Of a stretch of 64,000 nucleotides of DNA, positions 39,301 to 61,400 are shown piece by piece. Source of the stretch: Lytechinus variegatus (taxonomy: Eukaryota; Echinodermata; Echinoidea; Temnopleuroida; Toxopneustidae); the NCBI RefSeq assembly GCF_018143015.1, contig NC_054740.1:41061180-41125179 (forward strand), written 5' to 3'. The first letter of the stretch is position 1. Each line of letters opens with the position of its first letter. Under the pieces are notes generated by a model. It did not search any database, was not told the origin of the DNA, and saw only the letters and a list, made by a program, of their open reading frames with translations. The position numbers and the translations under genes are program-made.

Positions 39301-42300
39301 ACTCTCTTATTTGGATGTAACTGGCTCGTTCATATAACTATTTTGTTGAAAATAAGCGAAACTTTAAAATGCCATAACTTTCTTATTTTACATCCGATTT
39401 TGATGAAAATTTCAGTGTTATGCTTGTTGAATTTTTCTCTTTTTATTCAAATAAAGTTTTTGTTGGGGTGGACTTGTATTTTAATACCAAGAAATCAGAC
39501 TTTTAGAAAAGCCTGGATTTTGAGTGACACTACAGTCTACACAAAACATATGGCGTTGTATGTCTTCCCAAAAGCTGATTCCGCGTTTGCTATCTTTCGC
39601 ATCCCGTGATCCTCTGGCTCTGCGTTGACAGATGCCCTCACGCGACAAACCCTATTTGCGATACTATAGACTAGTGACTATTCATTGAATTTCTGAATTT
39701 AACTGCAGCGCCAATGTCACATTCATATCACAGGTTAACAGGGGCCTGTTGCATGACGAGATGAGCGATACGTAGGAACGTCCTAGGACCATTCTTCCGA
39801 AATAGGAAGATTGGCGACAAATCAGCGTTTTCCGTTTCACGAAGGCAATTTTGTCTTCCAAGTCCGCGACATCGTTTGATATCGATAGTATCGGAAAAAT
39901 ATTTAGTCTACATCGTCACCTGAACCTTTTATTTAGGAATGACTACTTTTTATAAAATCATTTCAATAAAAGGAGATCAAATGATGTTTTATTTATTACT
40001 GATTGTAGAATTGATGTACGGAGCTTACTTTATGAGGTAAAAAGAGAAAAAACTTTAAAGATTCACAAACATAACTGAATAAAATCGAATATTTCATTAT
40101 TTCCCTTATAATTTAGAACACAATGTCTTTTTAGAGACACCTTTCATTGATATTTCAACGAAAGAGATCCTTGTCCGATATAAAAATTGATTTAACTAAG
40201 TAATTTCAACATTTTATTAATTCAATATTCTGTATTTTTATAGAATACTTATATTTAATTATAATATTGCAAATTATGCGTTAATATGTTATTTGTTGAG
40301 GTAAAAATAGGGTTTGAATGGAGTAAACAAAATCAACAATGTCTGATTGTATGAGACTAAAAGGGAAAATATGAGAGGCTGCATGTGAAAAATCTAATTT
40401 ATTTATTTTATTTGTCAGATATAACGCAAGAAATACAAATGTGAGTATAAACCCAGGACCAAAATCCAGTTAAAACCAATTAGAGCAAAACCAATTGAAA
40501 CCAGTTGGCCAACTGGTTTCAATAGGGAAATTGGAACAACTGGTTCCAGTTGAAAACCAGTTGCCAATTGGTTCCAGTTAAAACCAATTGGGCAACTGGA
40601 ACCAGTTGGCAATTGGTTTCAATTGTTTCAATTTCCCTATTGAAACCAATTGAAGGCAACTGGTTTCAATTGGTTCCAGTTGAAACCAATTGGAGGCAAC
40701 TGGTTTCAACTGGAACCAGTTGGAGGCAACTGGTTTCAACTGGAACCAGTTGAAACCAATTGGTTTCCAACTGGATCCAATTGGAACTTCCAGTTGGAAT
40801 GATCTTAATTAGTTACAAATTAATTAGCATTTGCACTAACTATTGCTCATGCCAACACAGAAGCAGTGTTATTTGTCTATTAATACCAATGTAAAGGGCA
40901 TTGATAAAATACAGACTTTCATATGTGTATAATTGTAGGGGAGATCTTCAAATATATGTATTTTTATTTAATGTAATTTGGTAACAGTTAGTGGTGTACT
41001 AATTATCTTTTAATCTGTTTTAATTATAATCTATGGTATTTATGAACATGGCTTTCACTGCTAAGTATTCTAAACACTTATCTGAAAAAAGTGTGGTACT
41101 TCAAATTGAAAAAAATTAAATAGATACATTGTAAATTATGATGAATCTCATAAAACATTAATCTGTGCACACTGGCAGAAATATGCAAATTAACTGGTTT
41201 CAATTGGATCCAGTTGGGCAACTGGAAAATTTCCAATTGGAAACCAATTGGAAATCATTTCCAGTTACCCAACTGGATCCAGTTAGGATTTCCAGTTACC
41301 CAACTGGTTCCAATTAGAATTCATTTCCAGTTACCCATCTTTCCAGTTAGAAATCATCTCCAGTTACCCAATTGGTTCCATCTAGGATTTCCAGTTACCC
41401 AACTGGTTCCAGTTAGAAATCATTTCCAGATGGAAGTTATTTCCAGTTACCCAACTGGTTCCAGTTAGGATTTCCAGTTGCCCAACTGGTTCCAGTTAGG
41501 ATTTCCAGTTACCCAACTGATCCAGTTAGAAATCATTTCCAGTTGGAAGTCATATCCAGTTAGCCAACTGGTTCCAGTTGGGATTTCCAGTTGCCCAACT
41601 GGTTCCAGTTAGGATTTCCAGTTGCCCAACTGGTTCCAGTTAGGATTTCCAGTTGCCCAACTGGTTCCAGTTAGGATTTCCAGTTACCCAACTGGATCCA
41701 GTTAGAAATCATTTCCAGTTGGAAGTCATATCCAGTTACCCAACTGGTTCCAGTTACGATTTCCAGTTGCCCAACTGGTTTCAATTGGTTTCAACTGGAA
41801 ATTGTTAAATTCCAGTTAAAACCAATTGAAACCAATTGAAACCAATTGAAACCAGTTGGAAATCCAACTGGTTTCAATTGGATTTTGGTCCTGGGAACAT
41901 ACCTCAGTTGCATGATGAGTAACCGAAGTTACTGCAAACATGGCCAAGTGAATAAAGTAGTGCTTTGCAATAATAATTAAAACATAGAAAAAGTTGTGCA
42001 ATCCGCAATGGAGAAAATACTATTAACAGAAATAATGCTAAAAATTACAACGATCAAAAACGTTGGTCATATTTAAAGTTGACCACTTAATTTATGGAAG
42101 TTTATGATATAAGAATATAAGGTTTAAGAATATACAAAATATATATGTTCAACATTTCAAAGTTCAGGAGTAGGAGAGAAGAGACTACCGTGATTCTTTT
42201 AACATGACATAGGAGCCTAAAGGGGCCTACCCTACGATTTAAAATGTGCCTCTTCGTATGGATTTTCCATAAAATTTTATTTGATGAACTTAATTCATTT

Positions 42301-45300
42301 GTAACGATTGTGATGGAATCGTTAGCTAAGCCTAATCTGTATCTTGAATTTTATTAGCTATTTTGATACTGCAGATTTTTGTTTTGTTTCTGATGTCTCT
42401 GATGTGTGATGTCAGTGCCCAGTGTGTTGTGCTTGAAATATCTCTTTCAAATTTCACATTTTTGTAGTAAGATCTTGGAAATAATCATCTAATCCCATAT
42501 TCTAGATCACAATCAAGGACTCAAGACACCCAAGGATTACTTTTGATTAATTGTTGGAAAAGGATTGCAGTGATTTTCATGGATGATTTCTCCACCCAGA
42601 GGCTCTGTTTTGAATGACACAGTGTCATGTATGTCCCATATATAGGATTTCATGTTGGACAACTTGGTGTCCTGTACAGGTACCAGTGAATACACAGCTT
42701 ACTGCAGCAAAGGTCTCTTTGTATGTATTGCCTCATGATTATACTACTTGTATGTTTAGCTGATGCTTGTTGATGTTGACATTGCTTATAAATGCTGAAG
42801 TGGAACTTTGTAGTTACACTTTGTAGATTTACAGATCGTGGACACTGAAAGCTTACCTTGCATGGACATGGGAAAAATTTGCTGAGTCATTCCATCCATA
42901 TTGGGTTTAGGACTCGTTCATTTTTATGATATGAATATTTAACACTACACATGTAGTCATCATGCCTAGTGCTCTACTAGATTACCTTTGTTGGTTCTTC
43001 CTAATAGCTTCTGTTATCAACATTCATGTACAGCAAAGTCAATCCAGATCTGACTCTTGCAAAAATGGACCATCCAAAGCAAAGAATTATGATAATCCAG
43101 AATGGACAAAGCTTTATCTGAATCTTAACCAAAGCAGCAGTAGCAGTAGCTTCTTGAATGGTAGCGATGCTATTTCTCTACAGGATTCTTTACTCATATC
43201 AACACTTGGTGGTAAGCGTATGAGGAATTATTGTCAAAATCCTATGCATCGTAAGAGGCATACTCTTCTCTACTTGAGCTTTATACTACTATCAAATGCA
43301 GCTGACATTGAATCAAATCCAGGGCCTAGAGTACCGAAATACCCATGCCAGTTATGTTCACGTGCTGTAACCTGGAGACAACGTGGTGTAGCTTGTGACG
43401 ACTGCGATCAGTGGTACCACGTTGACTGCATGGGGATGTCGACGCAGGTCTATGAAGCATTGAACAGTGTGTCCTGGCATTGCATCAGATGTGGGATGCC
43501 CCAGTTCTCGTCCAGTCTCTTTAATTCGACAAGTATAGAGGTCAGCAATTCATTTGATGTCCTAGGATCATCAAATGATGTTACTACAAGTAGTACTATA
43601 GAAACAAACCATACACGCAGCTTGTCATTTTCAGAAGACGGCCTGGGATCACCGCAACGGGCATCTACTCCAGTCAGACCAAGAAGGTCTTCATCATTGC
43701 CACCTAACGGGAGGTCATCTTCAGAACAAGGCAGAAATAAAAGGCAGCACATCAAACCTAGAAATATGAAAGTTCTCAATATTAACTTTCAAAGCATCAG
43801 AAATAAGAAGGAAGAATTGGCTGTACTCATTGAGACAACAGAACCTTCTGTTATTATTGGTACAGAAACCTGGCTCAACCCTACCATCAAGAGTTCAGAG
43901 ATCTTTCCTTCCAATTTTGAAGTGATTCGCAAAGATAGGGCGGATAGCTATGGCGGAGTTCTGCTGGCAATAAGGAATGATCTCATATACGATGTCATAG
44001 ATACTACAGGGACTGGTGAACAAGTCTTCGTGAAGCTCTCATTCGGGGCTAACGTCAAGCTGATAATTGGAGCTTTGTATCGTCCCCCAAACAGTGACAT
44101 TAACTATCTCAATGATCTTTGTTCTATTGTTGAGAATGTTGCATCCAAAAACAAGAAAGCAGCTTTGTGGATTGGTGGTGATCTGAACCTTCCAGATATT
44201 GATTGGACGAACCTCAGCGTCAGCAGTCATAACTACCCAGCCAGCATGAACAACAGATTGTTAAACATGACTCATGACTGCGCTCTTCAACAGATGGTGA
44301 CTTTTCCCACACGTTTGCAGAGCACTTTGGACTTGTTTCTGACGAACCGACCATCTCTGGTCAACAAGTGCTCTCCACTACCAGGGCTTGGAGACCATGA
44401 TATTGTCAGTGTTGACACAAATGTAACAGCTAAGAGGCGAAAACCAGTGAAGAGGTTAATGCATATATGGAAGAATGCTAACCTGAGTGAAATGAAGAGA
44501 GAATGTGGCTTGTACCAACAGCGCTTCATAAAGATGCACGACGAAAAGAGTTCAGTCATCAACATGTGGGAGGAAATCAAGACCTTTTTGCAGGACTTGC
44601 TACAAAAGCATGTACCATCTAAGATGACCTCAAGTCGGTTTAATCAGCCATGGATCAATTCTTCAGTCAAGCGGCTTTCCAGAAGGAAGAAACGTGCCTT
44701 CAAACGGGCACGGTGTACCGGGCAGCAGAGAGATTTCCATAAATATCAAAAACTTAAAAAGTCTTCACAGGTGGTATGTAAACAAGCATACAGTGATTAC
44801 ATTAATCACATGATAAATCCAGACTTGTCCTCAAATCCCAAGCGCTTTTGGAGCTTTATTAACAGCAAGAGGAATGATAACACTGGAGTAGCACCTCTGA
44901 AAGCTCAAAGTGGAAGGACTATTACAGACAGCACGAGGAAGGCTCACATCTTGAATGATCAGTTTACTTCTGTCTTCAACAAGGATGAAAACATGACCAC
45001 CATCAAAGACAAGGGACAAAGCCCGTATCCAGACATGGAACAAATCAACATTAGTCCTGATGGAGTGTACAAGCTGCTATCAACACTGCAGATACACAAA
45101 GCAACAGGTCCAGACGGCTTGCAAGCGAGACTTTTGAAGGAACTTGCGACAGAACTCACGCCTATCCTCACTATTCTCTTTCAAGCATCTGTTGACCAAG
45201 GCATTATTCCGGATGACTGGAAAAGAGCTAATGTAGTTCCTGTCTTCAAGAAGGGAGAGAGAAACAGAGCAGAAAACTACAGGCCAATCTCGCTGACCTC

Positions 45301-47764
45301 TATTGTGTGCAAGACCCTGGAACACATTGTGTGCAGTAGCATTCTTGACCACCTGGATAGCCATAACATTTTATGTGACGCCCAGCATGGCTTTCGCAAG
45401 AAGCGCTCCTGTACATCTCAGCTCTTACATGCTGTTCAGGACCTTTCCCAGGGTATTGATGATGGCGATCAGCTTGATGTGATTCTACTGGACTTGTCAA
45501 AAGCCTTTGACAAGGTTCCCCATGGTAGATTGATGTACAAAGTCAACTATTATGGAGTCAGAGGCAATATTCACTCATGGATTGAACATCTACTCAGCAA
45601 CCGCTCCCAGAGGGTTCTTATTGAAGGAGTTACTTCTCATGAAGCCCCCGTTCTCTCAGGAGTGCCGCAAGGTAGCGTGGTCGGACCCCTACTCTTCCTC
45701 CTCTTCATTAATGACCTCCCCGAATATGTATCATCACAGTCTACGGTGCGCCTCTTTGCTGACGACTGCATCTTGTACAGAAAGGTCAAGACAGAAGAGG
45801 ACACTAAACAGCTTCAGAGGGACCTGGATGCTCTTCAAGTATGGGAAGATGACTGGCTCATGCAATTTCACCCGCAAAAATGCCAAGTTATGCATGTTAC
45901 CAATAAGAGGGTAGTTTTCAAGAGTTCGACACCATATTGCATTCATGGAATACCCCTGGTGGAGACTGATAAAGCAAAATACCTTGGTGTAAACTTCCAG
46001 GATAACCTTAAGTGGAATCACCATGTAGACAAAACAACTAAGTCTGCCAACTCAGTCAGCAGCTTCCTGCAGAGAAATATCAGAGACTGTCCTCTCAAGA
46101 CGAAAGTGTTGTGCTACAAAGCACTTGTCCTTCCAGTACTGGAGTATGCTGCTGTGGTGTGGGACCCATTTACCCAGAGGAACATCTCAAAACTGGAAAT
46201 GGTACAACGCCGTTACGCCCGCTTTGCTTTAGGAGACTTTCGACGTACCAGCAGTGTATCAGATATGCTAAAGCAACTCCAGTGGGCTACTCTTCAGGAA
46301 AGAAGGGCACAACAGCGAGCTAGCATGGTCTACTGCATCATCAATAAGCTTATTGACATCCCGGATGACCACTTTATTCCATCAACTGGTCCATGTACAC
46401 GTGGAAATCCTGATAAGTTCCAAATTCCATATGCCAGAACACAAGTATATCAAAAGACATTCTTTCCTGATGCTATCAGAATATGGAACTCACTCCCAGC
46501 AAAGATAGTTCACAGCACCTCCCTCGCATCTTTCAAGCAGGAGGTGCAGCAAAGGAGGCTTCGTTAAGACCTCTTCTGTTTTTAGCCGCACATAGTTTTG
46601 TAGAGATTTTTACTTGCACTATTCATCTGGGCACTTGACAAGCACAAGTACGATAATATGCCAACGGCAGTCTGTACTTTACAGGAAGAAGAAGAAGAAG
46701 TTTCACTGTTTCATATCTCTAGTTATCCGAAATCCAAGAATTAATTTTCATTGATTAAAATTAATCTCATCAATAAATAATAATCATAATGAAAATTGAA
46801 TAAAAATAAATAAATGATTTAGCATGTTTAACATCCTAGTTTTGTATCGTGTTTTTTTTTCTTTGTTTTTGCTTAAAGTTATAAACATGTTTTGTTTCCT
46901 TACATAATTTCTTTTAAAGAATTTTGTTTTCATGTTGTTTAACTATCTATAAATGAGAAAGCATGATGGGTCAGAGAGATAGTGCTGCCCATTTCGATAG
47001 TTCAAGTTCATTTTTTTTAATGGAAAAGGGGTGGGGATAGGACGGAGGGAGAATAAAAGAAAACATATTTTTTAAAAATATTTGGGCCTACATTGCCCCG
47101 GAGAAGTTAAAATGACATCCGTTTTTGGTAGTCTTGTCGACGTGAAATCGATGACAACTAGACCCCATAACTGGCGCCATCCCAGATAAAATGCATCATC
47201 ATCAACCCCCTAAAAAATATGTTTAAAGGTGATATGTCAGTGTGGCTTGCCGTAAACGCATTTTCTCTCAATGCCGACGGTGGCGGGCGGTGTGCAAAGA
47301 AGATCATGCCTACGTAGGACATGTCTGGAGGTGTCTTTCCAAGGACCATTCTTCGTATCGCCCAAATAGGCTTTGTGAAACAGTTGAGCGATATCTCGTT
47401 CTTACGTAGAATGTTCTACAAAAAAGTCAAGACCATTTCATGCAACAGGCCCCAGCTTACCAGCCTAGTGAGGAAAACTAAAGACAATGTCACACATAAG
47501 ATACCCACTCACTCACGTTCACTGAGCTGACTCCGTCAACGTCAAGTCTCAAGACAAGCCGCGCGTCGCAATCGCATGCATGCGCATCTCTCGACTCAGT
47601 CACATCCTCTGCAATTGACAGCATAAAATTACACATGTGGGACTGATCATAAAAAAAATTGTTGCAAATTCGTACCTCATCTGTTTCTCTTGCTCGATTT
47701 CTGCCCGAATTTTGTCGATATCAGTGCCATCTGCTGATGGTTCTCTTCCTCTCTTATTTGCCAT
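33295..47764 (-). CDS. CCDC169: CCDC169-like coiled-coil protein, seven coding exons
   Basis: The coding exons on the - strand are 47764-47676, 38262-38180, 37574-37420, 37080-36982, 36118-36065, 34729-34620 and 33388-33295. They add to 684 bases including TGA, 227 residues, close to human CCDC169 (about 214). Every junction is GT-AG and every phase agrees. The identification is from recalled family sequence: NEWKTKFETQEELNALLEKQ (human EWKTRYETQLELNDELEKQ), VKELEREKNSLNSQLKDY, LDQESKAFHKANEARKNF, and a basic C terminus RRGPIRKTAAVKKLP (human KRGPVKK). Residues 20-160 are predicted coiled coil by composition. The cellular role is poorly defined; expression in human is biased to testis. A palindromic CRE lies about 120 bases upstream of the ATG. 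Intron 1 (about 9.4 kb) carries a full LINE ORF in the opposite orientation. Confidence 0.86.
34620..34729 (-). CDS. CCDC169: CCDC169 coding exon 6
   Basis: The acceptor TTACTAG opens ARLEEDKFKQSQKKGSNMST and on to SRRLGR plus two bases. The donor is AA|GTAAGT. The sequence is less conserved here, as in the family. Its phase 2 end is exactly what exon 7 needs. Confidence 0.82.
34861..35580 (+). mobile_element. LINE C-terminal fragments in tandem
   Basis: A + strand LINE end (about 35016-35330) reads DMIDMYKYLHGYYDTSFSV and then IDVWNSLPEDVVTACS with frame breaks. The 3' UTR block CTACTTTGATCG..GGCTACTTTTTTGCAACC occurs both before it (34861-34990) and after it (35440-35580), so two LINE 3' ends are stacked. 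A sister copy is at 38345-38800. Confidence 0.75.
36065..36118 (-). CDS. CCDC169: CCDC169 coding exon 5
   Basis: 18 codons, AFHKANEARKNFVTELRN, matching the human AYQKINNERRTYLAEM segment. The acceptor is ATACAG and the donor AAT|GTGAGT. It was found by phase and similarity because it is too short to stand out. Confidence 0.88.
36470..36820 (-). mobile_element. LINE reverse transcriptase C-terminal fragment
   Basis: The - strand reads KTWGKRSFAYACPTLWNSPP and then EDIKKCTSIKTFKNLLKTLL, a typical non-LTR RT C terminus. It lies in CCDC169 intron 4 in the same orientation as the host gene. Confidence 0.75.
36982..37080 (-). CDS. CCDC169: CCDC169 coding exon 4
   Basis: 33 codons in phase 0 at both ends: ASLRKMVKELEREKNSLNSQ then LKDYNWRLDQESK. 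The acceptor is CAATCAG and the donor AAG|GTAAAA. Confidence 0.9.
37240..37415. repeat. (TCA)n microsatellite
   Basis: Imperfect TCA/TCG/CCA triplets run up to within about ten bases of the CCDC169 exon 3 donor. Confidence 0.9.
37420..37574 (-). CDS. CCDC169: CCDC169 coding exon 3
   Basis: The acceptor TTCAG opens GNEWKTKFETQEELNALLEK and on to KAFDELSE. This is the best-conserved family block. The donor is GAG|GTGAGT. A GAT/ATC microsatellite begins within about ten bases of this donor. Confidence 0.9.
37690..37975 (+). mobile_element. tRNA-derived SINE, second family
   Basis: The tRNA-like head has GTGGATTAGTCTTCTGAC and a B-box-like GGTCGTGGGTTTGAATCC. The body contains GGGTACCTGGCAGG and the tail ATGCGCTATACAAGAACTGC. 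An inverted relative lies at 61890-62130 and a fragment at 7185-7260. Confidence 0.8.
38180..38262 (-). CDS. CCDC169: CCDC169 coding exon 2
   Basis: Follows TTTGTAG and encodes SLMLENSMQELETTMEELEK then RYDCILDE, ending in the first base of the next codon. The donor is G|GTAAGT. The heptad pattern is clear. Confidence 0.88.
38345..38800 (+). mobile_element. LINE C-terminal fragment
   Basis: Near-identical sister of 35016-35460, starting at CTAAAATTGATAATAA and ending AGACATTCTACTTTGATCG. It encodes pieces such as RVIDVWNSLPEDVVTAC and FKNRLEKHWKKIAFDFE. It lies in CCDC169 intron 1 about 80 bases upstream of the exon 2 acceptor. Confidence 0.8.
38880..39484. mobile_element. 605-bp TTAA-bounded MITE with long inverted arms
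   Basis: Starts TTAAAGGTCAAGTCCACC and ends GGTGGACTTGTATTTTAA. The arms of about 230 bases (38880-39115 and 39250-39484) include TCATCAAAATCGGATGTAAA and CGAGCCAGTTACATCCAA. It is the best copy of the family in this window. Confidence 0.85.
40452..41895. mobile_element. 1.44 kb TIR element built of CAACTGG/CCAGTTG words
   Basis: The termini are inverted copies of CCCAGGACCAAAATCCA. The outer parts (40452-40800 and 41190-41895) consist almost only of permutations of AACCAGTTGG, CAATTGG and GGATTTCCAGTT, so nearly every stretch can pair with another. The centre (about 40800-41190) is ordinary AT-rich sequence. No transposase is visible. The phrase CAACTGGTTCCAGTTAGG recurs at least eight times with a period of about 31 bases in the right half. 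Confidence 0.85.
41896..42961 (+). other. No gene seen; possible LINE 5' UTR
   Basis: The sequence between the CAACTGG element and the LINE start codon has no supported exon. Part of it is probably the 5' UTR of the LINE, but the element's left border cannot be placed without another copy. Confidence 0.3.
42500..46702 (+). mobile_element. Apparently young CR1-like LINE (5' border uncertain)
   Basis: Includes the 1201-codon ORF, a short 3' UTR (46568-46683) and a terminal GAA-type microsatellite (about 46684-46702). Short simple-repeat tails instead of poly(A) are usual for the CR1 group. The left border is a guess. The unrelated LINE tails at 1352-1661 and 26310-26560 use ATT, so this is a different family. 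Confidence 0.7.
42962..46567 (+). CDS. CR1-type LINE polyprotein: 2A-like motif, PHD finger, APE endonuclease, reverse transcriptase
   Basis: One uninterrupted frame of 1201 codons. Residues 1-25 look like a signal peptide. Residues 101-122 are a hydrophobic run ending DIESNPGP, the consensus of 2A ribosome-skipping peptides, with the break expected between Gly121 and Pro122. Residues 128-177 form a PHD-like zinc finger (C129, C132, C145, C148, H153, C156, C174, C177). Residues 268-480 are an APE-type endonuclease (NINFQSIRN, GTETWL, YRPPN, GGDLNLPDIDW, GDHD). Residues 700-980 are reverse transcriptase (YRPISL, DLSKAFDKVPH, VPQGSVVGPLLF, LFADD). The C terminus has the usual IRIWNSLP. The product should nick target DNA and copy the LINE RNA. 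The intact frame suggests a young copy. It lies antisense to CCDC169 in its first intron. Confidence 0.93.
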   Translation: MPSALLDYLCWFFLIASVINIHVQQSQSRSDSCKNGPSKAKNYDNPEWTKLYLNLNQSSSSSSFLNGSDAISLQDSLLISTLGGKRMRNYCQNPMHRKRHTLLYLSFILLSNAADIESNPGPRVPKYPCQLCSRAVTWRQRGVACDDCDQWYHVDCMGMSTQVYEALNSVSWHCIRCGMPQFSSSLFNSTSIEVSNSFDVLGSSNDVTTSSTIETNHTRSLSFSEDGLGSPQRASTPVRPRRSSSLPPNGRSSSEQGRNKRQHIKPRNMKVLNINFQSIRNKKEELAVLIETTEPSVIIGTETWLNPTIKSSEIFPSNFEVIRKDRADSYGGVLLAIRNDLIYDVIDTTGTGEQVFVKLSFGANVKLIIGALYRPPNSDINYLNDLCSIVENVASKNKKAALWIGGDLNLPDIDWTNLSVSSHNYPASMNNRLLNMTHDCALQQMVTFPTRLQSTLDLFLTNRPSLVNKCSPLPGLGDHDIVSVDTNVTAKRRKPVKRLMHIWKNANLSEMKRECGLYQQRFIKMHDEKSSVINMWEEIKTFLQDLLQKHVPSKMTSSRFNQPWINSSVKRLSRRKKRAFKRARCTGQQRDFHKYQKLKKSSQVVCKQAYSDYINHMINPDLSSNPKRFWSFINSKRNDNTGVAPLKAQSGRTITDSTRKAHILNDQFTSVFNKDENMTTIKDKGQSPYPDMEQINISPDGVYKLLSTLQIHKATGPDGLQARLLKELATELTPILTILFQASVDQGIIPDDWKRANVVPVFKKGERNRAENYRPISLTSIVCKTLEHIVCSSILDHLDSHNILCDAQHGFRKKRSCTSQLLHAVQDLSQGIDDGDQLDVILLDLSKAFDKVPHGRLMYKVNYYGVRGNIHSWIEHLLSNRSQRVLIEGVTSHEAPVLSGVPQGSVVGPLLFLLFINDLPEYVSSQSTVRLFADDCILYRKVKTEEDTKQLQRDLDALQVWEDDWLMQFHPQKCQVMHVTNKRVVFKSSTPYCIHGIPLVETDKAKYLGVNFQDNLKWNHHVDKTTKSANSVSSFLQRNIRDCPLKTKVLCYKALVLPVLEYAAVVWDPFTQRNISKLEMVQRRYARFALGDFRRTSSVSDMLKQLQWATLQERRAQQRASMVYCIINKLIDIPDDHFIPSTGPCTRGNPDKFQIPYARTQVYQKTFFPDAIRIWNSLPAKIVHSTSLASFKQEVQQRRLR
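47676..47764 (-). CDS. CCDC169: CCDC169 coding exon 1
   Basis: Encodes MANKRGREPSADGTDIDKIR and then AEIEQEKQM (29 codons plus AG). The donor is ATGAG|GTACG. The upstream base context GATCCACC before the ATG favours this start. Confidence 0.83.
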
Positions 47765-47879
47765 GGTGGATCAATCAAGAATTTAAAGAAACATCATCAG
47801 AGTAAAATATAACACCATCGTATAGGCAAATTTTTTGCACGAAAAATCTTGTTGTCAAGCGAAAGCTTCCCTTGACAAT

Positions 47880-47897
47880 GATGATGACGTCATCATC
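47880..47897. promoter_or_regulatory. Palindromic CRE upstream of CCDC169
   Basis: GATGATGACGTCATCATC is an 18-base perfect palindrome centred on the full CREB/CREM site TGACGTCA (47885-47892), about 121 bases before the CCDC169 ATG. The spacing suits a proximal promoter. Function is inferred. Confidence 0.55.
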
Positions 47898-47999
47898 AGC
47901 AGGCAGCTAGCTAGCTAGCAGCATGCCCAGTTCGAGCTGATCGAGATGCTGATCGAGATCGAGATGCATGTAGAAGCATGACAACTAGGAGATTTTTTA

Positions 48000-49640
48000 A
48001 AAACTGTGAGATAAATCTCCAGTCATATGCTAAAAGGATGGCTTATTATTCAGATAGGGGACCTCAACTGGACCATGCCTCCCCCCCCGAAAAAACAAAT
48101 CACGACCAAGAAAAAGGTAGCTAACTTAAAGTAAATAATGTCAAAATCTATCCTCCCCGATCCCCCCCCCCCAAAAAAAAAAATAAAATAAAACTGAAAG
48201 AAGAGATTTGTATAATTAAAAATTTCAAAATCTTTGCTCGCCTAATTCGCTCTCATTTTTCTGAACTGTTGCTCCATCCCCATATCTGGGCCCCTAAAAA
48301 TCTTTGGTTCATTACACTTCTGAGAACAAAACAAATATACACGCAGATATTTTCTTGAGGATGAATTTACGATAAATCTTATCTCATCTTGTGTTTTTCG
48401 TTTCTCAACAAGAAGAAATCTAGTTGACTCAATTTTGTCCCAACTTGAAATTCAGAGTTACTTAAATATAAAGGGTTACTACTTCGGCCGGGCTAAAAAT
48501 AATGATATTTTAATATAAAGTATATTGACCTAAAGGCTGAACATATATCAAAAGTTCGCCGTCGCTACCAGCAAGGTATATAAAGAAGGGGCTTTTTTTA
48601 TCTTTTCTACTTCAATTTCATCTTTAAATCCCTTTTTTTTGGGGGGGGCACCCCGAGCCCCTGCCCATCTGTATGCCACTGTTCAAATGCACCATAACCT
48701 TTGTAGCATGCAATGATTTGGGGAAAAAATACATGCCCTCCCATACTTTGGTTGATTTTTTTTTGTTTTTTGCTTAAAGAAGGAATATTGAAAGCTAAAA
48801 GAGAACATATTAAAAAGAAACAACAGAACAATTCAAGCAAATAAACCGGTTTTTAAGAATGAATTTTGACCGTATAATTCGAAACTCTATGGCATAGATA
48901 TTAAAAAAGATAAGACGAAGTCTGCTGATTTGCAAAAAGTCCGATCATCGGTTTATGCCATTTTGGTGCAAGCCTCAGTTTCTAACCCCAGACAAAAACA
49001 TTCCGTGTGTGCTCAAGCATGAACGAAACTATTTCTTTTAATGGCATTCGAAAGATAAGACTTCAGAACACCAATTAACACCCAAATATAGATATCATGG
49101 TTTGAAACAAAAATTTTTATAGACTTTTCAAATCTGTCCCGTTTTTTTTATACGCACTGTATAGGTGATTTTGTCGTAGCCTGTTCAAGTGGGGGGGGGG
49201 GTCTCGATTTTGCCGACAGATATGGTACCGATTCATTCGTGTTTCTCATTCCCCTCAGTCACATTGTCTTCCGAGTCAGGGGCAGGTCAAGCTTTCATCA
49301 GTAGGTGGCATGTTTTCATTCACATTTTCCCCGATCTCCCTAAAAAATGATAGTCTGATTTTTTAGTGGTTAAGGCTACAGTTTTACCTTAAGCCTCATT
49401 CTTACAAATAAGATAAGGTATCTCATATATCAAGAAAGTCTTTGATGTGTAATTGTGATTAGAGCAACAAAAAACAGAAGAATATTCTGAGCATTTTTTT
49501 TGTATTCATCATAAAGATGCGTATAACTAAACGATTCCTGCAAACTCGAAGCGCATGCAACCTGAAATTTTTAATAGCTGAAGTGCAAAAGTACATGCTA
49601 TGAGGACTGTAAGGACTGTATGCAGTATCTCATGAATAAA
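48000..49640. other. No gene seen
   Basis: AT-rich sequence with poly-C/poly-A runs and no supported exon, RNA gene or complete element. Confidence 0.5.
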
Positions 49641-50310
49641 ATAACAAATAGTGTGAGCGCGAAGCGCGAGCTTAATTCTTTTTACATTTCGATCTGAAAA
49701 CTAGACATGTTAGCAATTTTGCATACATGAACAAGATGGTTATCTGCTAATCAAACAATTCTTGCGAGAGCGAGGCGCGAGTTGAAATTTTGATGTATAA
49801 TATCCGTACGTGAAAACGGACATTCTCGGCATTTTTGTAATCTTAAACACGATACCATTAGTGTACCTACGGGGTGACAGAGGGGGCAGACTGCCCACCC
49901 CCCTGACGAGTCACAACCCAGGCAAGGGACGTATCCCTGCCCCCCCCCTGACGAGTCACAACTAATCCCTGGCCCGCTCCTTTGAACTTGAAGACCTTTT
50001 TTTTCTTTTCTTTTGCTTGTCAATTTTTTTCTGGTACGAAATGTGGTTGATCGACGACCTGTTTTTTTTTCCATTTTTTGGCTTTAAATTTTTTTGGCGG
50101 ACGAATTTGCCCGCCCTGTGGAAAATCCTAGGTACGCCACTGTATCTAACTAAACATTTTGTTCCAGCGCGAAGAGCGAGCTGGAAACTTTAAGTGACCT
50201 GCAAAATTAAGTACCTGCAAGTGACTGTTAGCAGTACGTGAAAATAAGATGAATATTTACCAATGAAAATAATGCGAGCGCGAAGCGTGAACTGTTTTTG
50301 TATTTTGATA
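49640..50310 (+). repeat. Array of GAGCGCGAAGCGCGAGC words, period about 100 bp
   Basis: Four decayed copies of GAGCGCGAAGCGCGAGC (about 49656, 49767, 50166, 50276) are separated by AT-rich sequence with ATTTTGATAT and TGAAAACTAGACATG. About 300 unrelated bases (about 49850-50155), including a repeated CCCCTGACGAGTCACAAC, interrupt the array. It is the reverse-strand relative of 55140-55780. Confidence 0.7.
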
Positions 50311-51047: not shown

Positions 51048-51195
51048 AGGGGCCGCGGAACGGTTTTCAAAATGGGGGGGGGGCTGACCATGCTAAAAAT
51101 CACAATCATATGGTCATTTTTACGTTTTTTTACACGGTTTTGGAAAAAAAATGGGGGGCTGAAGCCCCCCCCCCCCCGGTTCCGCGACCCCTGAG
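51048..51195. mobile_element. 148-bp foldback MITE
   Basis: The ends CAGGGGCCGCGGAAC and GTTCCGCGACCCCTG are inverted copies with one mismatch. The interior has inverted G and C runs. An AATTC microsatellite (51236-51275) follows. Confidence 0.75.
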
Positions 51196-51892: not shown

Positions 51893-53513
51893 TAAAGGCC
51901 CTATCTCACCAACGGAGACGTCGCTGCGACAGTCTCCAACTTATCAGTCGCTGCAGTCGCGGAGACGTCTCGGAGACAAAAATGGCTTGCGCTCTCACCA
52001 AGGAGACGTCTCTGCGTTGTCTCAGAGACGTCTCCAGAGCAGGTGACAAGCACTAGCCCGACAGTCGCGGCGATGTTGCGGGAAAGTCTCCAAGTAGTCG
52101 CTGCGACGTCCTTGAGACATTTCTTAATTGCAAGCGAGTCTCCGAGACGTTTCAGGCAGTCTCGGCGACGTCTCCGAGATGTTTCCGGGCAGTCGCGGTG
52201 ACTTGGCTGGTAGTTTGCCAGGGTCTCCGAAAGGTTGCTGAGACGTCGCTGAGACGTATCCGAGACTTCCTCCTGCCTATGTATACAAAAATCGGCCATT
52301 ATCTGCTGCTGTTCTTGTTTCCAGTCAAACTGTTTGGCCTCTTTGGCCATGTTGGCATCGAAAGCTTCCTCGACAGCAACAGCTGCTTCAAAAACTTGTT
52401 CCTTTTTCTTGGGACTTCCACTTGCCTTGGGTGGCATGCTGGAAGGAGTGGTGGCAGCAACAATTTCAAAATAGGATCGATGGAACGTTTGAAAGATCAT
52501 ACACCTGACTTGGAGCAGGAGGAGGGATATCAGCACGCGTTCAGTCACGTGGTTTCTGAAGTGGGTCAAACAGTGTGAAGAAGTGTCGCGGAGACGTCTC
52601 CGCAATGTATTGTAATTTTTTGGGTCTCCAGCAGGTCTTCGCGATGTCTCTGAGACGTCTCTGAGACATCGCCGAGACATCGCGGCGACGTCTCAGCAGT
52701 CGCGGATATCATTAGTCTCCGAGACGTCGCAGCAACTGATGGAGACTTCTCGGAGACGTCGCGGAGACTAGAAACAGTCTCCAAAAATATTAAACATGTT
52801 TAATCTTCTTGCGACTCCTCGGAGACTCTGTAATTTTCATGAGACGTCTCAGAGATGTCGCGGAGACGTCTCTGCAACTAGCAAAATTTGTAGTCGCGAA
52901 CTAGTTTCAAGCCCAGTGAGATACCTAGTTTCAGGCCCAGTGAGATACCCCCAGGGGGTATCTCACTGGGCTTGAAACTAGTTCGCGACTACAAATTTTG
53001 CTAGTTGCAGAGACGTCTCCGCGACATCTCTGAGACGTCTCATGAAAATTACAGAGTCTCCGAGGAGTCGCAAGAAGATTAAACATGTTTAATATTTTTG
53101 GAGACTGTTTCTAGTCTCCGAGAAGTCTCCATCAGTTGCTGCGACGTCTCGGAGACTAATGATATATGCGACTGCTGAGACGTCGCCGCGATGTCTCCGC
53201 GATGTCTCAGAGACGTCTCAGAGACATCGCGAAGACCTGCTGGAGACCAAAAAAAATTATAATACATTGCGGAGACGTCTCCGCGACACTTCTTCACACT
53301 GTTTGACCCACTTCAGAAACCACGTGACTGAACGCGTGCTGATATCCCTCCTCCTGCTCCAAGTCAGGTGTATGATCTTTCAAACGTTCCATCGAGACGT
53401 CTCCTTGGTGAGAGCGCAAGCCATTTTTGTCTCCGAGACGTCTCCGCGACTGCAGCGACTGATAAGTTGGAGACTGTCGCGGCGACGTCTCCGTTGGTGA
53501 GATAGGGCCTTTA
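51893..53513. mobile_element. 1.62 kb foldback element built of GAGACGTC words
   Basis: The termini are inverted copies of TAAAGGCCCTATCTCACC followed by AACGGAGACGTCG. Much of the element consists of GGAGACGTCTC-type palindromes. The inner arms (about 52478-52945 and 52950-53397) are almost perfect inverted copies meeting at the palindrome GATACCCCCAGGGGGTATC (near 52936-52960). The left side has about 470 extra bases (about 52010-52478) that the right lacks; the junction in the right arm falls within a GAGACGTCTC word. No transposase is recognised. Confidence 0.85.
52262..52437 (-). CDS. Non-repetitive coding stretch inside the GAGACGTC element
   Basis: On the - strand an ATG at 52437 opens MPPKASGSPKKKEQVFEAAV, then EEAFDANMAKEAKQFDWKQE and QQQIMADFCIHRQEEV (about 59 codons). 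The frame then runs on into the GAGACGTC repeats, so it has no stop of its own here. Charged, ordinary protein-like composition contrasts with the repeats around it. KQFDWKQEQQQIMADF recalls the start of SANT/MADF-type DNA-binding domains of transposon proteins, but that is a weak guess. It may be a captured exon or a relic of the parent transposon. Not a confirmed gene. Confidence 0.4.
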
Positions 53514-54115
53514 AGCTTTATGTTGCAAATGTTGCAAGCCCCAGGTGTGTTGCTATGTCAGTGCATGATTAATGTTTGTAAAGAATACTTGAAAAACATT
53601 GTCATGAATAGCATATAAAAATCTACATTTCTAGAAGTACATTTATAGTGTTTGGTAAAACGATGTCTACAAACATTTTCGCCGCTCCTTTCTTGGCAGC
53701 TTTATCAACGGTCTCATTGCCGTTAACATAACAGTGTGAGGGAATCCATTCAAAATTAATACAAATATCTTACAAACTGAGTTTATGAATTCTAAATAAA
53801 ATTTCATTAAAAATAGTGCATTATATGAAATATGAATCAATCATATTTAGTGCTGACAAAGAGTCGCCAAAATTACAACTGAACTTTATCAGAGGAGTCT
53901 AACCATGGCCATTAAAATGGCCATGAGTTCCGCTGTCGTGATATTTACATCGGATAACCTGAAATACTTATTTATTTTATATTGAGGAACATAAAATGCT
54001 GCCCCCGTTCTAAAATTTTCCAGTTTGGATCTATCAGTTTAATGTAAATCAGGCGCGGATCCAGGAGGGGGCCGAGCCGACCCCTATTTTTTTTTGACAA
54101 CCTGCAGAATAAAGT

Positions 54116-54985
54116 GTAGGGGAAGGCGGGGTAAGTTGAGCATAGGGGCAAGTTGAGCCACCAGCCCCAGGCCAATAATGAATGAGTCAGACATTGTGGT
54201 GGTGTCATGTATTGATGACCCATAGCATAACCCCTAACCCCACCACATTGTTTCCAACTTTGAAACAAAAACTAGTTTTTTAGAGGGAAAAATATGAATT
54301 TCAGCCAAAAAAGTAAAAAAGAGTGTGAAATAGATAAGTGCTTTATAAACACACATGTCTTTAAATATAATACAGACATGATAACAACATTATTAGTCCA
54401 TGTATGGATCTTCATTCTTGTCATTGTCTTTTATATGATGGATGCATAATAAATGTGTGGATACAAAATTATCGCACTAAGTTCGGACTGGGGTAAGTTG
54501 AGCCAAACAGCATGGGGCAAGTAGAGCCATGGGAATTCCTAATTTCCTATGGTAATGTATCTTAAAAAAAAAACCATAAAAATCAATTGAAATGCAGGCT
54601 GAAAGGAGCAAACTTACATGACTGCTCTTTTCCTTTTACAGGATGTTAGTATTTATAGAGAATTAGCAAGTGAAAAGACTTTAAACAAAAAATTGACATG
54701 CTGGTTCTCCCCCATACATTTTGTACATAGTTTTTGTGGCTCAACTTACCCCAGAAGGTGGCTCAAACTTACCCCATATATGGGGCAAGTTGAGCCATTT
54801 GACATCGTTTTTTTCAAAGGTCACGATGACTTTCAGTGTGGGGATAGAAAATTATATAAAGGTGGAAAATATTTCAGAAGAATTAAATTTCAAGGCAAGG
54901 TACTTATTTCGACAAGATTATTAATCATATCAATTCTAACATGCAAAAAGCAAAAACTGTCACAACTTACCCCGCCTTCCCCTAC
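54116..54985. mobile_element. 870-bp TIR element with reiterated GGGGTAAGTTGAGCC
   Basis: Inverted ends GTAGGGGAAGGCGGGGTAAG. The terminal word recurs inside in both orientations, with small variants near 54131, 54147, 54491, 54513, 54737 (-), 54758 (-) and 54781, and at the right end. The rest is unique AT-rich sequence. It lies inside the element at 54050-55969. Confidence 0.85.
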
Positions 54986-55139
54986 TGTTTATCTTGATAG
55001 AAACTATATACGAAAAACAGAAAGAAAAGTAAGAAAGAGGTATTATACCCATGATGTGTAATTTAGAGCCTCGTAACGGCCAGCCCGAGCCCGAAAGGAA
55101 ACAAGAAAAAGGTGAGGGGAAGAATTGGAAAATAGACTT

Positions 55140-55780
55140 TTTATAAAAATGTTCGCTCGCGCTTGCATTGCCTGTGTAATGACTCCCATTCAAGAGGATT
55201 AAATGACACTTCACATGTCCAGTTCTGAAATAAATTTGCACACAATATTTTAGCTCGGACATCAAGCTTTCATTATTTTTTTTTATTTACACAAAATGTT
55301 CAGCTCGCGCTGCGCGTTTGCATTGTTTGATTTGTGAGATACCTATCCTCTTTGGATTTTTTTTTCCAAAATTTGTCCAAATGCTCCTTTATCATGTCAG
55401 TATATAAAAAATTTAGCTCGTGTTTCGCGCTCGCATCTAATTGTTTGAGACACACAGCTTGTTCTTTATTTAAATAAACATGCGCCTACAATGTCCAGTT
55501 TTCAGGTCGGAAATGCCAAAATTTTGAGCTCGCGCTTCGCACTCTCATGATTTAATTGGTGATAACTTGTATCCTCTTCATTAATCACTAAAACAGTCCT
55601 AATTGGGTCTCTTTTCACGTTACTATAATCAAATTTCGGCTCGCGCTTCGTGCTCACATTGTTTAGTTAGATACTTATCTTTGTTCATGGTTATAAAACT
55701 GATCAGAATCTTCAGTTCTGAGGACATAAAATTTCAAATAATTTTAGATTGCGCTTCGCGCTCTCATTATATATTAAGAC
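55140..55780 (+). repeat. Array of AGCTCGCGCTTCGCGCTC words, period about 100 bp
   Basis: Six copies (about 55151, 55302, 55418, 55529, 55638, 55750), each following AAAATTT and followed by TCATTG-like sequence and a TATC stretch. It has the same word and spacing as 49640-50310 on the other strand. Confidence 0.8.
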
Positions 55781-56274
55781 CACATGAGATAGCTTATCTT
55801 GTTTGTAACAATAAAAACTAACATATACTTGAAACTTCAATCTTTACTTAGGACTACCCCCTGAAAAACCAAAAAAAAAAAAAAATCAGATTAAAGCGGC
55901 CAGTCGAGAAAAGTTTTGCTGAAAATATTTTTCGGCCCCCTATATTGGCGAAAGCTGGATCCGCCCCTGTAAATAATCATTCCACACAACTCCAATTCTT
56001 TCTAGAACGTTAGATTTCATCTCGGCCGTTGTTAGCATAGGCCCCTTTTTAAATCTTACGATGAACATTAAAACCCTGACCGGTGTAAAAACAGTCATGA
56101 TATCAAAAGAAAGGTATAATGATTCATAGAATACAAATATACTAAAAATATTACATATATCTCATTCCATTAGTTAAAATTATTAAATAAAAATCAAAGA
56201 AAGCGCTCCTCAAAAGAACGCTTCGATTGAGCACCCCCACGTCGCCTGGAAATGATGACGTCACCGTCACGTTG

Positions 56275-56685
56275 TGTCTGGAAGGTTGTGATTCCATAGG
56301 TTTGTGTACAAAAGCATTGGATATTTTCTTTCATTTCCATGTTATGATCCATTTTTTTTTGTTTTCAGATGAAAATGGCACTCAAAATTATTCTTATTGG
56401 GCCTAAATTGCTATGTCAGGAAAAGTTGTTATACATAATCTAAATGCAGATAGAATTGAAATCTGCGCCAAATAAGCAGGAAATAAAATATGGCAAAAAC
56501 TAATTCAAAACTGTAGATTTTATAAATTCAAGCTTGTGGGAAGAAATATATGTGATATTCCTCTGTGAAATAGAAGTAAAGAGAATGAAATGCGTTATCT
56601 GGAAAGCAAAAAAAAAAAAAAAAATCACCCAGTTTTTCTGTGTACAAACCTATGGAATCACGACGATTCTTTCCAGGGTGACCAG
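56275..56685. mobile_element. About 410-bp inverted-repeat element
   Basis: TCTGGAAGGTTGTGATTCC followed by ATAGGTTTGTGTACA at the left is matched by its inverse at 56637-56680. It is non-coding. A TGATGACGTCAC motif lies just outside the left end. Confidence 0.65.
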
Positions 56686-57479
56686 ATTTCACAAAATGAA
56701 ATACGGGACATCAATCGACAAACTAATTTCAACAAAGAAGGCCACACACATGCAGCGTTAGACTTGTGAAATAAAATATAAAGCATTCAGGGAAGGGAGG
56801 ATGAACGAAAGAATGAAGGAGAGAAAGAAAAGAGATTAATTGAGAAGGAAAGAAAATGAAGGAAAAAAATTGGGAAAAAACCTTCTTTCACAACATTTGT
56901 ACATAATATCAACATCATACAAAATACTTTTTACATCTTAAGTACTTCGATTGTCACGCACACTTAAAATCTACAAAGATGAGATCATATTAAAAAGAAA
57001 AAGTATATATACATGTACATGTATGTCATGAAAGAGGAGGAGACCTTCAAGAAGCTGAGCTTGTCAAAGCAAGGTCCTCCAAAAGAGAATACATGGCATG
57101 AAATTTTAACTAGAGTAAATGTATTAAAGATAAAAGATATTAGAGGTAAAATTTACCCAGAAAAAACAAAACAAAACTAAAATTGTGTGAGAGTGAGGGA
57201 TTATTACAAATGAGATTTTGATATCTACACTGAGTAGGGAATGGGTAAGCAGGGGGATGCCAAAGGATGGAGAGGGAGAGAAAATTGAACACAAAACAAA
57301 ACAAAGGAACAAGAAAAGTGATAGGCTTAGAAAGGTCCCTTGCCTAGTTCCAGGAAGGGGTTAGGAAGATTGAAAGAAAAGGAGTGAGATAGAGAAAGGG
57401 AAAACAGACATAGTCACAAGAGGAAAGTTTGATAAATGAATATTGAAGGACAAGTCTGGAAAAAGAGGGGATAGACAAA

Positions 57480-58065
57480 TGAGCTAAGAAAATAGTAATA
57501 AAACTTAAACAGGTCATATGACATCGTATTTACATTAAATATTATCAACATAATTATTCAGTAAAAGCAATTTCAGTTTGCGTTTAAAAACAGAGACACT
57601 GACAGAACAAGTTACATCAATAGGAAGCGAATTCCATTACCTAATAGGACCAGTATAAGCGAGAGTTTTTAGAGCCAAGGCGATTCCCCGTGGCATATGT
57701 AGTGCAGTTGTCTGTCTAGTATTATAACTGTGAACTTGATTGTTCTTTCTAAACATTTGCACTAATGCATTCGGGAGTGTACCACTACATGATCGTACAT
57801 GAGTGGAGTAAACCCAACTGTAGAAGATAGATTCTTCTACCTTTAATAGTTTATTATTATAGAACAAAACATTAGTGTGTGCACGGTAATCTGAATTCTC
57901 ATCACCTTTTTTGAGTGACAAGTATCTTTCCTAGTTGGGTTTTTAAATATTTTCCCCATGCCAAAACTCCGTAATGAAGATAAGGCAAAATCAGAGTTGA
58001 ATAAAAAATAAGCAAAATTTCTTTTGGGACAAAACGGTTTGTAAACAAAACACGGGGCAGTCCCT
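57480..58065 (-). mobile_element. 5'-truncated LINE fragment beside the third gene's promoter
   Basis: The - strand reads FVPKEILLIFYSTLILPYLH and then YGVLAWGKYL and HSYNTRQ..LPRGIALALKT-like blocks ending with a terminal WNSLP region near 57640-57600. It is related to the LINE at 1-2030. Its broken 5' edge lies about 50 bases from the ZNF143-like motif of the next gene. From 56686 to 57480 no gene is seen. Confidence 0.75.
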
Positions 58066-58113
58066 GAAATCTATTTCTATACAAAACGTCACATTGCGGA
58101 CGTCGCACCCTCT

Positions 58114-58145
58114 ACCCACAATGCATGTAACAATTCAAGATGGCG
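58114..58145 (+). promoter_or_regulatory. ZNF143-like and YY1-like sites of the third gene
   Basis: ACCCACAATGCAT (58114-58126) fits the ZNF143/Staf core, and CAAGATGGCG (58136-58145) fits YY1. This pair is common in housekeeping promoters. The ATG inside the YY1 site opens a nine-codon upstream frame (58140-58166, ending TGA) before the main start at 58330. Confidence 0.5.
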
Positions 58146-58329
58146 ACTTACATGGCAGCAGGTTGAATGAATAGAGGAACAAAACAACTTGAGGAAATCT
58201 TCTTCCAAATTGTTTCCGTGTTATATTGTGCCATATATAGACGTCTAAGAATTTTAGCATCCATTTCGGGTGCTTAGTGGTACTAAAGAGTTGTTGGATT
58301 TGCAAGGAAACGCAAAATATCGGCTGGAC

Positions 58330-58490
58330 ATGGCAACTTTAGGCGTGGGAAAATCATCGCATCCACATCCACACACAGTGCAACTGCAAGGAAAGGATAA
58401 GGGATTTCGATCACAGGGATTTTTGACCGGCCGGGAATCGGCGAAAGCAATATTCCACGAGTTGTATGCTGTTGCAGACGAAAATACAGG
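58330..58490 (+). CDS. Unrecognised gene, coding exon 1
   Basis: Composition and codon use look protein-coding (HPHTVQLQ, QGFLTGRESAKAIFHELY), unlike the surrounding repeats. It sits about 190 bases downstream of a housekeeping-type promoter. Confidence 0.65.
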
Positions 58491-61400
58491 GTAACATTCT
58501 TTGTATTAATTACATTAAAAGATGAAGTTTGGCAATATTAAAACTTTGATGTAAAATGATAAGTAAAAAATACTTCAAGTTCAACAGTAGAGGCTCACGG
58601 ACAATATGGGAGACTCTCTCAGTCCAATGTGGGAAATAATCTCCCAAATTAGAGACTTGCTTTGCAAAAGAACAAAAGAAACAACACCAACAAAAGCGTA
58701 ACTTTTTCCACCCCAAGTTTTGTGTCACTGAGGTCAGAACTCCCAGAAGCCCATTTGTTTTGTGTGTGGATGACAACAAAAATCCTTATCAAAAGAAAAG
58801 TAGATGGTGAATTTTTAAAGTAGACAGTGAAAAGGGGTAATTTTTCATGAGGAATCTGCTTATCACATTTTTATTTGCAGCCAAGGTAATCCTTTTAAAG
58901 CAAATGTAAACAAAGGAAATTGATCACCCAAACTGGATCTGGAGACAGTCTCTGAAATTGGATACCCAAATTCTTTACAAAAGTCTCTGATATTGGAGAT
59001 AATCTCTCTCATGGGAGACAGTCTCCAATATTGACAGTGCGCCTCTACTGTTCAATTAAAATTAAAAAGCAGCAAAATTGTATTTTGCCTTGGCTTTTCC
59101 TTGGGTCTTGTGATGAACTTGAGGAAGGGCAGGTTAGATATTAATAGTTTGATGAAAATAATATGCCTATGGAACTATAGAATTGTGTGATGTCACATGC
59201 GAACAGCCTCCCAGCCAATGCACCAAGTCCCATATCATTATCAATCCATTGGCATTTGTTTAACAGTTATGATGAATAAAAATATTTTTCTCGTATTTAT
59301 ATGGGGTATGATTACTAATACTATGAACATGATGAAACGATGTGTCTGATGATAAATACATGTATGATGGGGTGACCATAATTTGCGCACATTTTAAAAA
59401 TCATCATGAAGTTGATTTTCATTCAAAAATTTCTCACAGTTCACACAAAATTAATCAAAATCATAAATACCAGACGGAAGGCAAGATCCCAAAGTCAAAT
59501 GTGCTTGACGGAATTATAAAGTAGGTCAAGGGTTTTGCTCGTATCGCGATCTCAAAATTCCATGGCGATCGATTATTGCGCGCTCAGCTGAAAAAGTGTC
59601 ACAAGAAAGTGAGACCTTAATTTGGGCACGGTCGTTTTGCACAGCTTTAGGAAAGAAATCAAGCTGACAAAGGTAAGATACTTATATCACATGGAGGTTA
59701 AAATGCCATAGATTCGGTTGGTATCACATTTTACTTACTTAATTGGGGACCTCAGCTTGCAAAATGGCGATTTCTTGATGCTTGTCGAGGAGATCTATCA
59801 GATTTTCTTGGAGCTGACGCAAAAGGTAACAAAATTTGCTGATGTTTTGCCAATATTTTCATTAATAGAGACTTTACCTTAAGGAAAATTACTACATCGG
59901 GTAATTTGAAGTCGCTCTTTCTGCTGGTGATATCTGTTTTTCAAGATATTAATTAGGTATTGAGATATTAGACCGTGCGCAAACTTAGGTAACGCGCGAA
60001 ATTAGGTTACACTACCAGTGTACATGTATAGATGATTCACCTCACAAATAAATTCACTTTAACTACATGTACATGTATAGAATTTGTAAGAAAATTACCT
60101 TTTGTAGAAACTGGACAATCTGCTTGTCTGTGATGTCACAAAATCAAAACTTAAAAATGTAAACTCCATTATTCTTTGACAAATTTTCATCAAATCTTCG
60201 CTAAATATTTTTCTGTAATATTTGTGCCTTTATTCATTGAAACCAAGTACTGGTCAGGGTGAACTTCCCCTACATGTACATAGGCAATTGTTTTTGTTTT
60301 CAGTTTGGTCTTTTGTATCTGAGTTTTTTATACTTTGACAGTTTGACTTTTGGCGTTTTAATAATCTTTTCCATTTCATTCAAACTTCAGCCCCCAAATT
60401 GTGTTTTTTTTTTGAAAAAATGCAATTTATCACCTTTTTATTCACAATTTTTTTTTAAATGGTTATGGTTTAAGTGTGCTAATGTTTTCTTTCCTTGTGT
60501 TGATCCCGATGTCATCTCGGCAGTTAGAGATGGCTTGGTTTGAATTTCTCTCACTCAAGGATTTCGTTGTTGGGTATATTTATTTTTAGCTGCAGGCTTC
60601 TTGATCACAATTGTTAGTATGCACATGTTGCATATGGATTATAATAAATGACTTCAGTTAATTGAATTGAATTCAATTTAATTGAAAATTAAAATGAAAG
60701 ATACTTGTAGACTTGGAAACTCAACTGCAGACCTCTGCATTTTTCCAGTAGGCCTACTTCCGGCAATTGTAAATATTTTGGGGGTTTGTATCATGTTTTG
60801 AGAACAAGGTCAGATGGTGATATCGGTCACAGATAAGAGTCAAGTAGGTCAAAACATTATATTTTTGCTTCAAGGACATAAATCAATTTTAGCTGGTCCA
60901 GGTCGAGCTCTGATCCTGACAAGATTTATGAGCCTGGTTCGGACCGAGTTGAATGCCATGCGTCATCAGTATTCTAAAGAACATTAGGCTACCCAAGAAG
61001 AAAACTGAATCAAAACCCTACTGAAACAAAAATCCTCTTGTTTAAAAAAATCCCACTTGATTTAGTTTTAGAGTCTTATTAATACAGGTTCTTAAATTTC
61101 TAGAAAAAAAATCAAATCATGAAGATTCTGCACCTGAAAGTCATGACCCCACCTGAGACTTGGTACCCTTCGAGGTTAACCCATCCTATTTCTTGGAGTG
61201 AGTTGTGACTATGGATGAGACTTGGGTTCATCATTATCACCCTGAGACCAAGGAGCAGTGGAAACATCCCATTTCATCAACCCCAAAGAAAGTCAACTCA
61301 AATGTTTCAATTTTTCATTAGACTATATTAATACAGGAACCTGTAATCAATAAGATCCCAAATAGCTTTGAACAAGAAATTTGTTGGGTAGGTTTATGAT

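Follow-up and report, generated by a model that had tools for sequence, protein, structure and literature searches.

Why should several transposable elements in one stretch of DNA each repeat a short word of its own, many times over, between inverted ends? This question is raised by a 64-kb stretch of the Lytechinus variegatus genome (G000:C1:41061180-41125179, hereafter the window), in which an earlier note had listed six elements with terminal inverted repeats (TIRs) and internal word copies. We labeled these elements A to F, located their ends, gathered their genome copies, read their target duplications and counted their words. Analysis of the sequences suggests, with moderate confidence, that four of them (A, B, C and D) are cut-and-paste transposons of a non-autonomous kind, on whose repeated words a transposase or an accessory DNA-binding protein most likely docks. 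The words differ between elements, as the note had stated, and the families are also separated by target duplication, which is TTA/TAA in B, 2 bp in A, TA in C and 5 bp in D and E. The note had further proposed a single plan for all six elements; this did not hold, since E is weak, F is nested and B is a pair of copies.

The genome searched comprised 869.6 Mb in 33 contigs. For each DNA query the best 40 candidates were scored and loci were taken as the best among these, which biases the sample towards young copies. End patterns were searched for as exact matches genome-wide, each with a reversed-pattern control. Word counts were compared with 300 shuffles of each element copy in the window and with 200 shuffles of the family consensus of A, C, D and E (words of 6, 8, 10 and 12 letters). 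They were also compared with a control set drawn from the rest of the same 64-kb stretch, in 104 overlapping windows of 1 kb. Variation at word sites was compared with variation at other sites among the copies of a family using circular shifts, with CpG, homopolymer and gap-near sites excluded.

Word iteration is plain in A and B, moderate in C and D, and weak in E. CAACTGG occurs 42 times in the window copy of A, on both strands, against a largest shuffle maximum of 7 for any 7-mer, and GACGTCTC occurs 13 times in the longer of two B copies, with a shuffle maximum of 3. The top 7-mer of the C copy was reached by 1 of 300 shuffles and its top 8-mer by none; the corresponding figures for the D copy are 1 and 20. 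None of 200 shuffles equaled the top words of the A, C and D consensus sequences at any of the four lengths. The C consensus contains GGGGTAAGTTGAGCC seven times with two mismatches at most, and the D consensus contains a 21-bp core six times with 0-2 mismatches and a seventh time with 6; five such cores lie within 5 mismatches in the window copy of D. For E, the top 7-mer of the window copy was reached by 161 of 300 shuffles. The top hexamer of the E consensus, CAAAAG (seven copies), was reached by 0 of 200 shuffles, GGAGAC was second with six copies (shuffle maximum 5), and the top 8-, 10- and 12-mers were reached by 8, 53 and 8 of 200 shuffles. Top 7-mer counts were 3-7 in 102 of the 104 control windows; the other two overlap a tandem array at 24646-25056, made of ~49-bp units rich in TGTCTGTC and TCTC. 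A and B exceed all 102 control windows at 7, 8 and 10 letters, and A does so at 12 letters too, where the longer B copy has a count of 4 that is matched by one control window. Only in C does the word lie inside the TIR. Words start ~15-20 bp inside the ends in A and B and ~24 bp inside in E, and the D core is absent from the D ends.

The B family has transposase-bearing relatives. What had been listed as one element is a longer copy (51896-52952, forward strand), near full-length in its match to loci L010 and L011, in which word-rich ends surround a remnant with a reverse-strand reading frame, followed by a shorter, inverted copy (52953-53510, reverse strand) whose right end is flush with that of the longer copy. 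A single foldback element was considered and rejected; the structure is a tail-to-tail pair from one family, in which a ~1.06-kb copy meets an inverted one of ~0.56 kb. At their junction CCCCC is followed by AGGGGG, and a target duplication is absent between the two copies. The family was defined by a blast comparison between pieces of the window element and 30 loci, which represent 29 distinct places since L009 and L012 coincide. Its ends are AGGCCCTATCTCAC on the left and AGGGGGTATCTCAC (reverse complement) on the right, and it occurs in short (548-583 bp) and longer (1.0-2.1 kb) forms, with L013 lacking the left end. In 4 of the 29 distinct loci (L009, L020, L022 and L024), the window being counted among the 29, another B copy is present in whole or in part. 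In L024, a B copy lies at a TAA within another B copy's own end, a case of self-insertion. A 3-bp target duplication was exact by script in 17 of 27 copies (16 TTA or TAA and one TCA); the script missed L016 and L018, which have TTA on both sides by eye.

Contrary to the note's report of no visible transposase, a DDE_Tnp_4 frame lies between B ends in three relatives, L016, L018 and L020, with E values of 9.7e-12, 2.5e-11 and 1.1e-10, above the curated cut-off. With a TTA/TAA duplication and a predicted DDE_Tnp_4-type transposase fragment both found in the family, B fits PIF/Harbinger in these two features. The longer B copy of the window is probably a deletion derivative, because it retains the start of the reverse-strand frame. 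The reverse-strand frame of L018, the sole locus examined in this respect, also matches MADF_DNA_bdg below the cut-off (E 0.036). When the L018 fragment was used as a protein query, 141 matches were obtained, with 105 of 449 candidates scored. Identity is 92-100% for the first six, 86-89% for three more that are partial and 40-59% for the rest. Each of the three relatives holds 39-41 words, and the coding middle is free of them. In L018 there are 20 words in the left 420 bp, none in the middle 1240 bp and 19 in the right 392 bp; the density of GAGAC/GTCTC per kb (left/middle/right) is 47.6/0/48.5 in L018, 54.8/0/45.0 in L016 and 50.0/0/47.5 in L020. Words of the GAGACGTC type are putative sites for the B transposase or for a MADF-like protein.

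Element A (40452-41895, forward strand) is non-coding, with ends CCCAGGACCAAAATCC and a target duplication AA. It comprises a left array of CAACTGG and CAATTGG words in both orientations (40466-40800) and a right array (41195-41880) that consists partly of 31-bp and 17-bp tandem units according to TRF and is the most length-variable part. A 30-base end pattern of A has 362 exact matches in the genome, the first 100 of which were listed by place, and the control has none. The 2-bp duplication is exact in 10 of 14 tabulated copies; the four misses include two copies with insertions and one with an unread flank. In 12 copies, four of which were fetched for their unusual length, A measures 1045-1819 bp. 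Each copy has a single half-word in its middle, which spans 360-363 bp; the left array is 270-423 bp with 24-38 half-words, and the right array is 392-1059 bp with 27-84 half-words. Word number thus varies among A copies and does so in the arrays only, which is the within-family variation that the earlier note had proposed to look for. A shares with CACTA/EnSpm elements a duplication in the range of 2-3 bp and subterminal repeats, here as arrays at both ends; its terminus is CCCAG in seven of eight copies and CCCCG in one, and no CACTA terminus was found.

Element C (54119-54982, forward strand; ends GGGGAAGGCGGGGTAAGTTG) lies inside D between two TA dinucleotides (54117-54118 and 54983-54984). 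Its ends have 3263 exact genome matches (control 0), of which the first 100 places were listed. All 30 copies listed are flanked by TA on both sides, their mean identity is 98.3%, and at the position of C, 7 of 8 D copies have an empty site with TA; a TA target duplication is that of Tc1/mariner-like elements. The flanks of C words are 0.23 alike, compared with a random average of 0.27 (one identical flank pair was taken as the two ends). C words were therefore not copied within a larger unit, because their flanks are on average no more alike than random. Among the 30 copies, C words are less variable than other sites (ratio 0.43), and a fraction of 0.030 of circular shifts gave a ratio as low.

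Element D (54050-55969, forward strand), which is interrupted by C, has ends CAGGCGCGGATCCAG and CTGGATCCGCCCCTG and a 5-bp target duplication, TAAAT, with an exact duplication in 6 of 9 copies. Its array (55150-55770, forward strand) is made of ~110-bp units with the core GCTCGCGCTTCGCGCTCGCAT, and a second D-core array occurs in the window at 49651-50292 (reverse strand), split by a ~280-bp insertion. The core is 0.94 identical between the six consensus units, compared with 0.51 for the rest of the unit, a value inflated by the alignment, and the best 21-column windows between units are the core itself. The core occurs exactly at 11,556 genome places. The reversed control occurs at 90, a number expected in part because the first 18 bases of the core are mirror-symmetric. 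Among the first 100 of the 11,556 places, orientation is the same for 45 of 45 neighbors within 3 kb, no cluster has more than five exact cores, and spacings fall into several classes (109-112, 195-196, 207-227, 332 and 340-356 bp, among others). Two loci with other spacing, L094 and L095, gave long alignments to the D array at 70-74% identity, cores included; they were chosen for exact cores and cannot alone show core retention. The number of exact places, the single orientation within clusters, the several spacings and the preservation of the core between diverged units raise the tentative possibility that the core is a constrained, putative binding site common to a large, diverged group of non-coding elements.

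The remaining two elements are E and F. E (58585-59050, forward strand) has ends CAGTAGAGGCGCAC with 641 exact genome matches (control 0), weak GGAGAC words and a 5-bp target duplication, TTCAA in the window, that is exact in 8 of 11 copies. For D and E, the 8-bp target duplication of hAT elements was not found, with no 8-bp match among the flanks printed. F was tried as one element and rejected, as its core and its ends each occur without the other. Its forward-strand ends belong to an outer TIR element (20772-22365; CCTGGAGGCGTCTGGGGAGTG...) and its core (20947-22127, forward strand) is an AGGTCA-rich tandem array of ~153-bp units, a separate family. When the whole of F was used as query, all 39 matches besides the window itself were to the core only, within positions 185-1397 of 1615 (best 40 of 8804). 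The ends alone gave facing pairs 306-503 bp apart without the core in at least five places (best 40 of 1498). Since core and ends are found apart, F is an array of AGGTCA words enclosed by the ends of an unrelated TIR element. In the B foldback and in F alike, one repeat lies beside or inside another. The boundaries given in the note for A, C, D and E were right to within a few bases, while those for B (51893-53513) and F (20769-22368) enclosed two copies and a composite, respectively. The outer ends of F (20772-20850 and 22287-22365) each hold an inverted pair of their own (GGCGTC..GGGGAGTG and CACTCCCC..GACGCC) and are hairpin-like. Elsewhere in the window there is a palindrome of ~225 bp without a central spacer (11200-11424; arms 91-93% complementary) and an inverted repeat with 198-bp arms, 90% complementary and 162 bp apart (38904-39461).

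Of the causes that had been suggested for the repeated words, the reading as transposase-binding sites fits these sequences best. Multiple word sites would raise the affinity for a protein and help the ends to pair; we infer binding, selection for word number and mobilization in trans. The arrays seem to grow by tandem duplication, as in the right array of A and the units of D, perhaps during gap repair following excision, as is proposed for Harbinger repeats in the excerpts of PMC2213677. A number of results weigh against the docking of a protein on the words. In exact k-mers, the window copy of C (counts of 6, 5, 5 and 3 at 7, 8, 10 and 12 letters) is above the control windows only at 10 letters, the two array windows excepted, and is inside the control range at 7, 8 and 12; that of D (6, 4, 3 and 2) is never above them, so that the evidence for words in D comes from the family consensus and from long words with mismatches. 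The D array is internal, and its core was chosen as the best-kept part. Variation among copies favors constraint only in C, one of five families, and weakly after five tests: the ratio is 0.63 in A (shift fraction 0.157), 0.82 in D (0.298) and 0.86 in E (0.453), and in B the direction is reversed, with words more variable than other sites (1.49; 0.774). No transposase was found for A or C in the three long end pairs opened. Two long A end pairs (L087 and L088) are A copies with insertions, with a longest frame of 125 aa and three scanned frames without a Pfam match at 0.1, and one long C pair (L093) proved to be C interrupted by an insertion of 2.1 kb, with two scanned frames lacking a Pfam match at 0.1. 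In B, the DDE_Tnp_4 matches cover 71-87 of 158 profile positions. L016 and L018, which lie on C4 ~3 Mb apart in opposite orientation, have identical flanks and represent a duplicated segment; they are one insertion present twice, because the flanks are the same. Lastly, the hAT account in the excerpts of PMC10368747 includes repeats that are unbound or unlikely to be needed. The overlap with control windows, together with the Hermes passages of that paper that speak against use of inner repeats, lowers the standing of binding sites and raises that of a passive origin.

In such a passive origin, tandem duplication, slippage or gap repair would have produced functionless arrays in non-coding transposons, and array-bearing masters would have spread them. 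We regard this as a real though distinctly less probable explanation. The right array of A, with its 31- and 17-bp tandem units and its free range of length, speaks for it, and word flanks are more alike than chance in A (0.37-0.39, compared with 0.26-0.27), B (0.36), D (0.44) and E (0.46). The tandem units and flank likeness of A indicate that tandem duplication built much of its right array. The lack of detectable word constraint among the copies of A, B, D and E points the same way. Against a passive origin, C words have no common flanks, B words crowd both ends and avoid the coding middle, and the D core was retained while the rest of its unit diverged. Ordinary satellite arrays, which the note had named as the finding that would overturn its view, were not seen where examined: A arrays reach 1059 bp at most in 12 copies, and D clusters hold no more than five exact cores in the places listed. 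B and C words were observed in dispersed copies with their own ends, and the AGGTCA array of F comes close to the satellite case.

Binding of host factors by the words, such as nuclear receptors by AGGTCA or some factor by the D core, with a benefit for expression or targeting of the element, is unlikely. The abundance of exact D cores is in its favor, and the F core resembles what we take to be nuclear-receptor half-sites; that core, to the contrary, is a separate repeat. Hairpin-driven template switching, which would amplify palindromic words and make foldback elements, is very improbable: the words of A, B and E form palindromes or inverted pairs and the B arms of the window are 97-99% complementary, but those arms are two length forms of one family, second B copies or parts recur in the loci given above, and neighboring D cores keep a single orientation in the places listed.

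Docking of a transposase or accessory protein on repeated words has precedents. The note knew of no recognized class of this kind; the trait is described in passages of PMC2613891, PMC10368747, PMC3688188, PMC2213677 and PMC3573991, to which the following comparisons refer. According to PMC3573991, several superfamilies have converged on multiple binding sites. In PMC2213677, a Harbinger subfamily has 2-35 subterminal 60-bp repeats, variable in number and at one or both ends. This PIF/Harbinger subfamily, MtPH-A6-4 of Medicago truncatula, resembles B in its TTA/TAA duplication, its internally deleted derivatives and its subterminal repeats, which vary in number and in some copies lie at both ends in opposite orientation; they are 60-bp tandem units with a triplicated 12-bp motif, whereas B is an animal element with dispersed 8-10-bp words. 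TNPA recognizes subterminal repeats of Spm/En, a CACTA element (PMC2613891), and A is similar in that its middle is unique, its target duplication is short and each end carries an array of words in both orientations; A differs in its CCCAG terminus, its 2-bp duplication and the lack of a transposase in its long pairs. Subterminal repeats together with BED domains are reported for the hAT elements Hermes, Ac and Tol2 (PMC10368747), to which D and E are similar in their CAG-type ends, and E also in words that form quasi-palindromes near the end; the duplications of D and E are 5 bp rather than 8. Galileo has internally repeated ends (PMC3688188), and Galileo/Foldback elements share with the families described here long, internally repeated ends of variable length and further transposase sites (PMC3573991, PMC3688188), but belong to the P superfamily of Drosophila, whereas the B foldback is a pair of copies. 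A literature search with six word strings returned nothing relevant, its sole match being an unrelated one to a B-like string. Sea urchin TU foldback elements show a general likeness in their repeated inverted ends.

Both the trait and the explanation favored here are already known, and the families of the window are further members. The repeated-word trait recurs, in 64 kb of a single animal genome, in several families whose target duplications differ, and one of these, B, has transposase-bearing relatives with words in both ends that avoid the genes. Together they provide natural replicates for testing the convergence on multiple binding sites proposed in print, and the copies of A form a natural series in word number.

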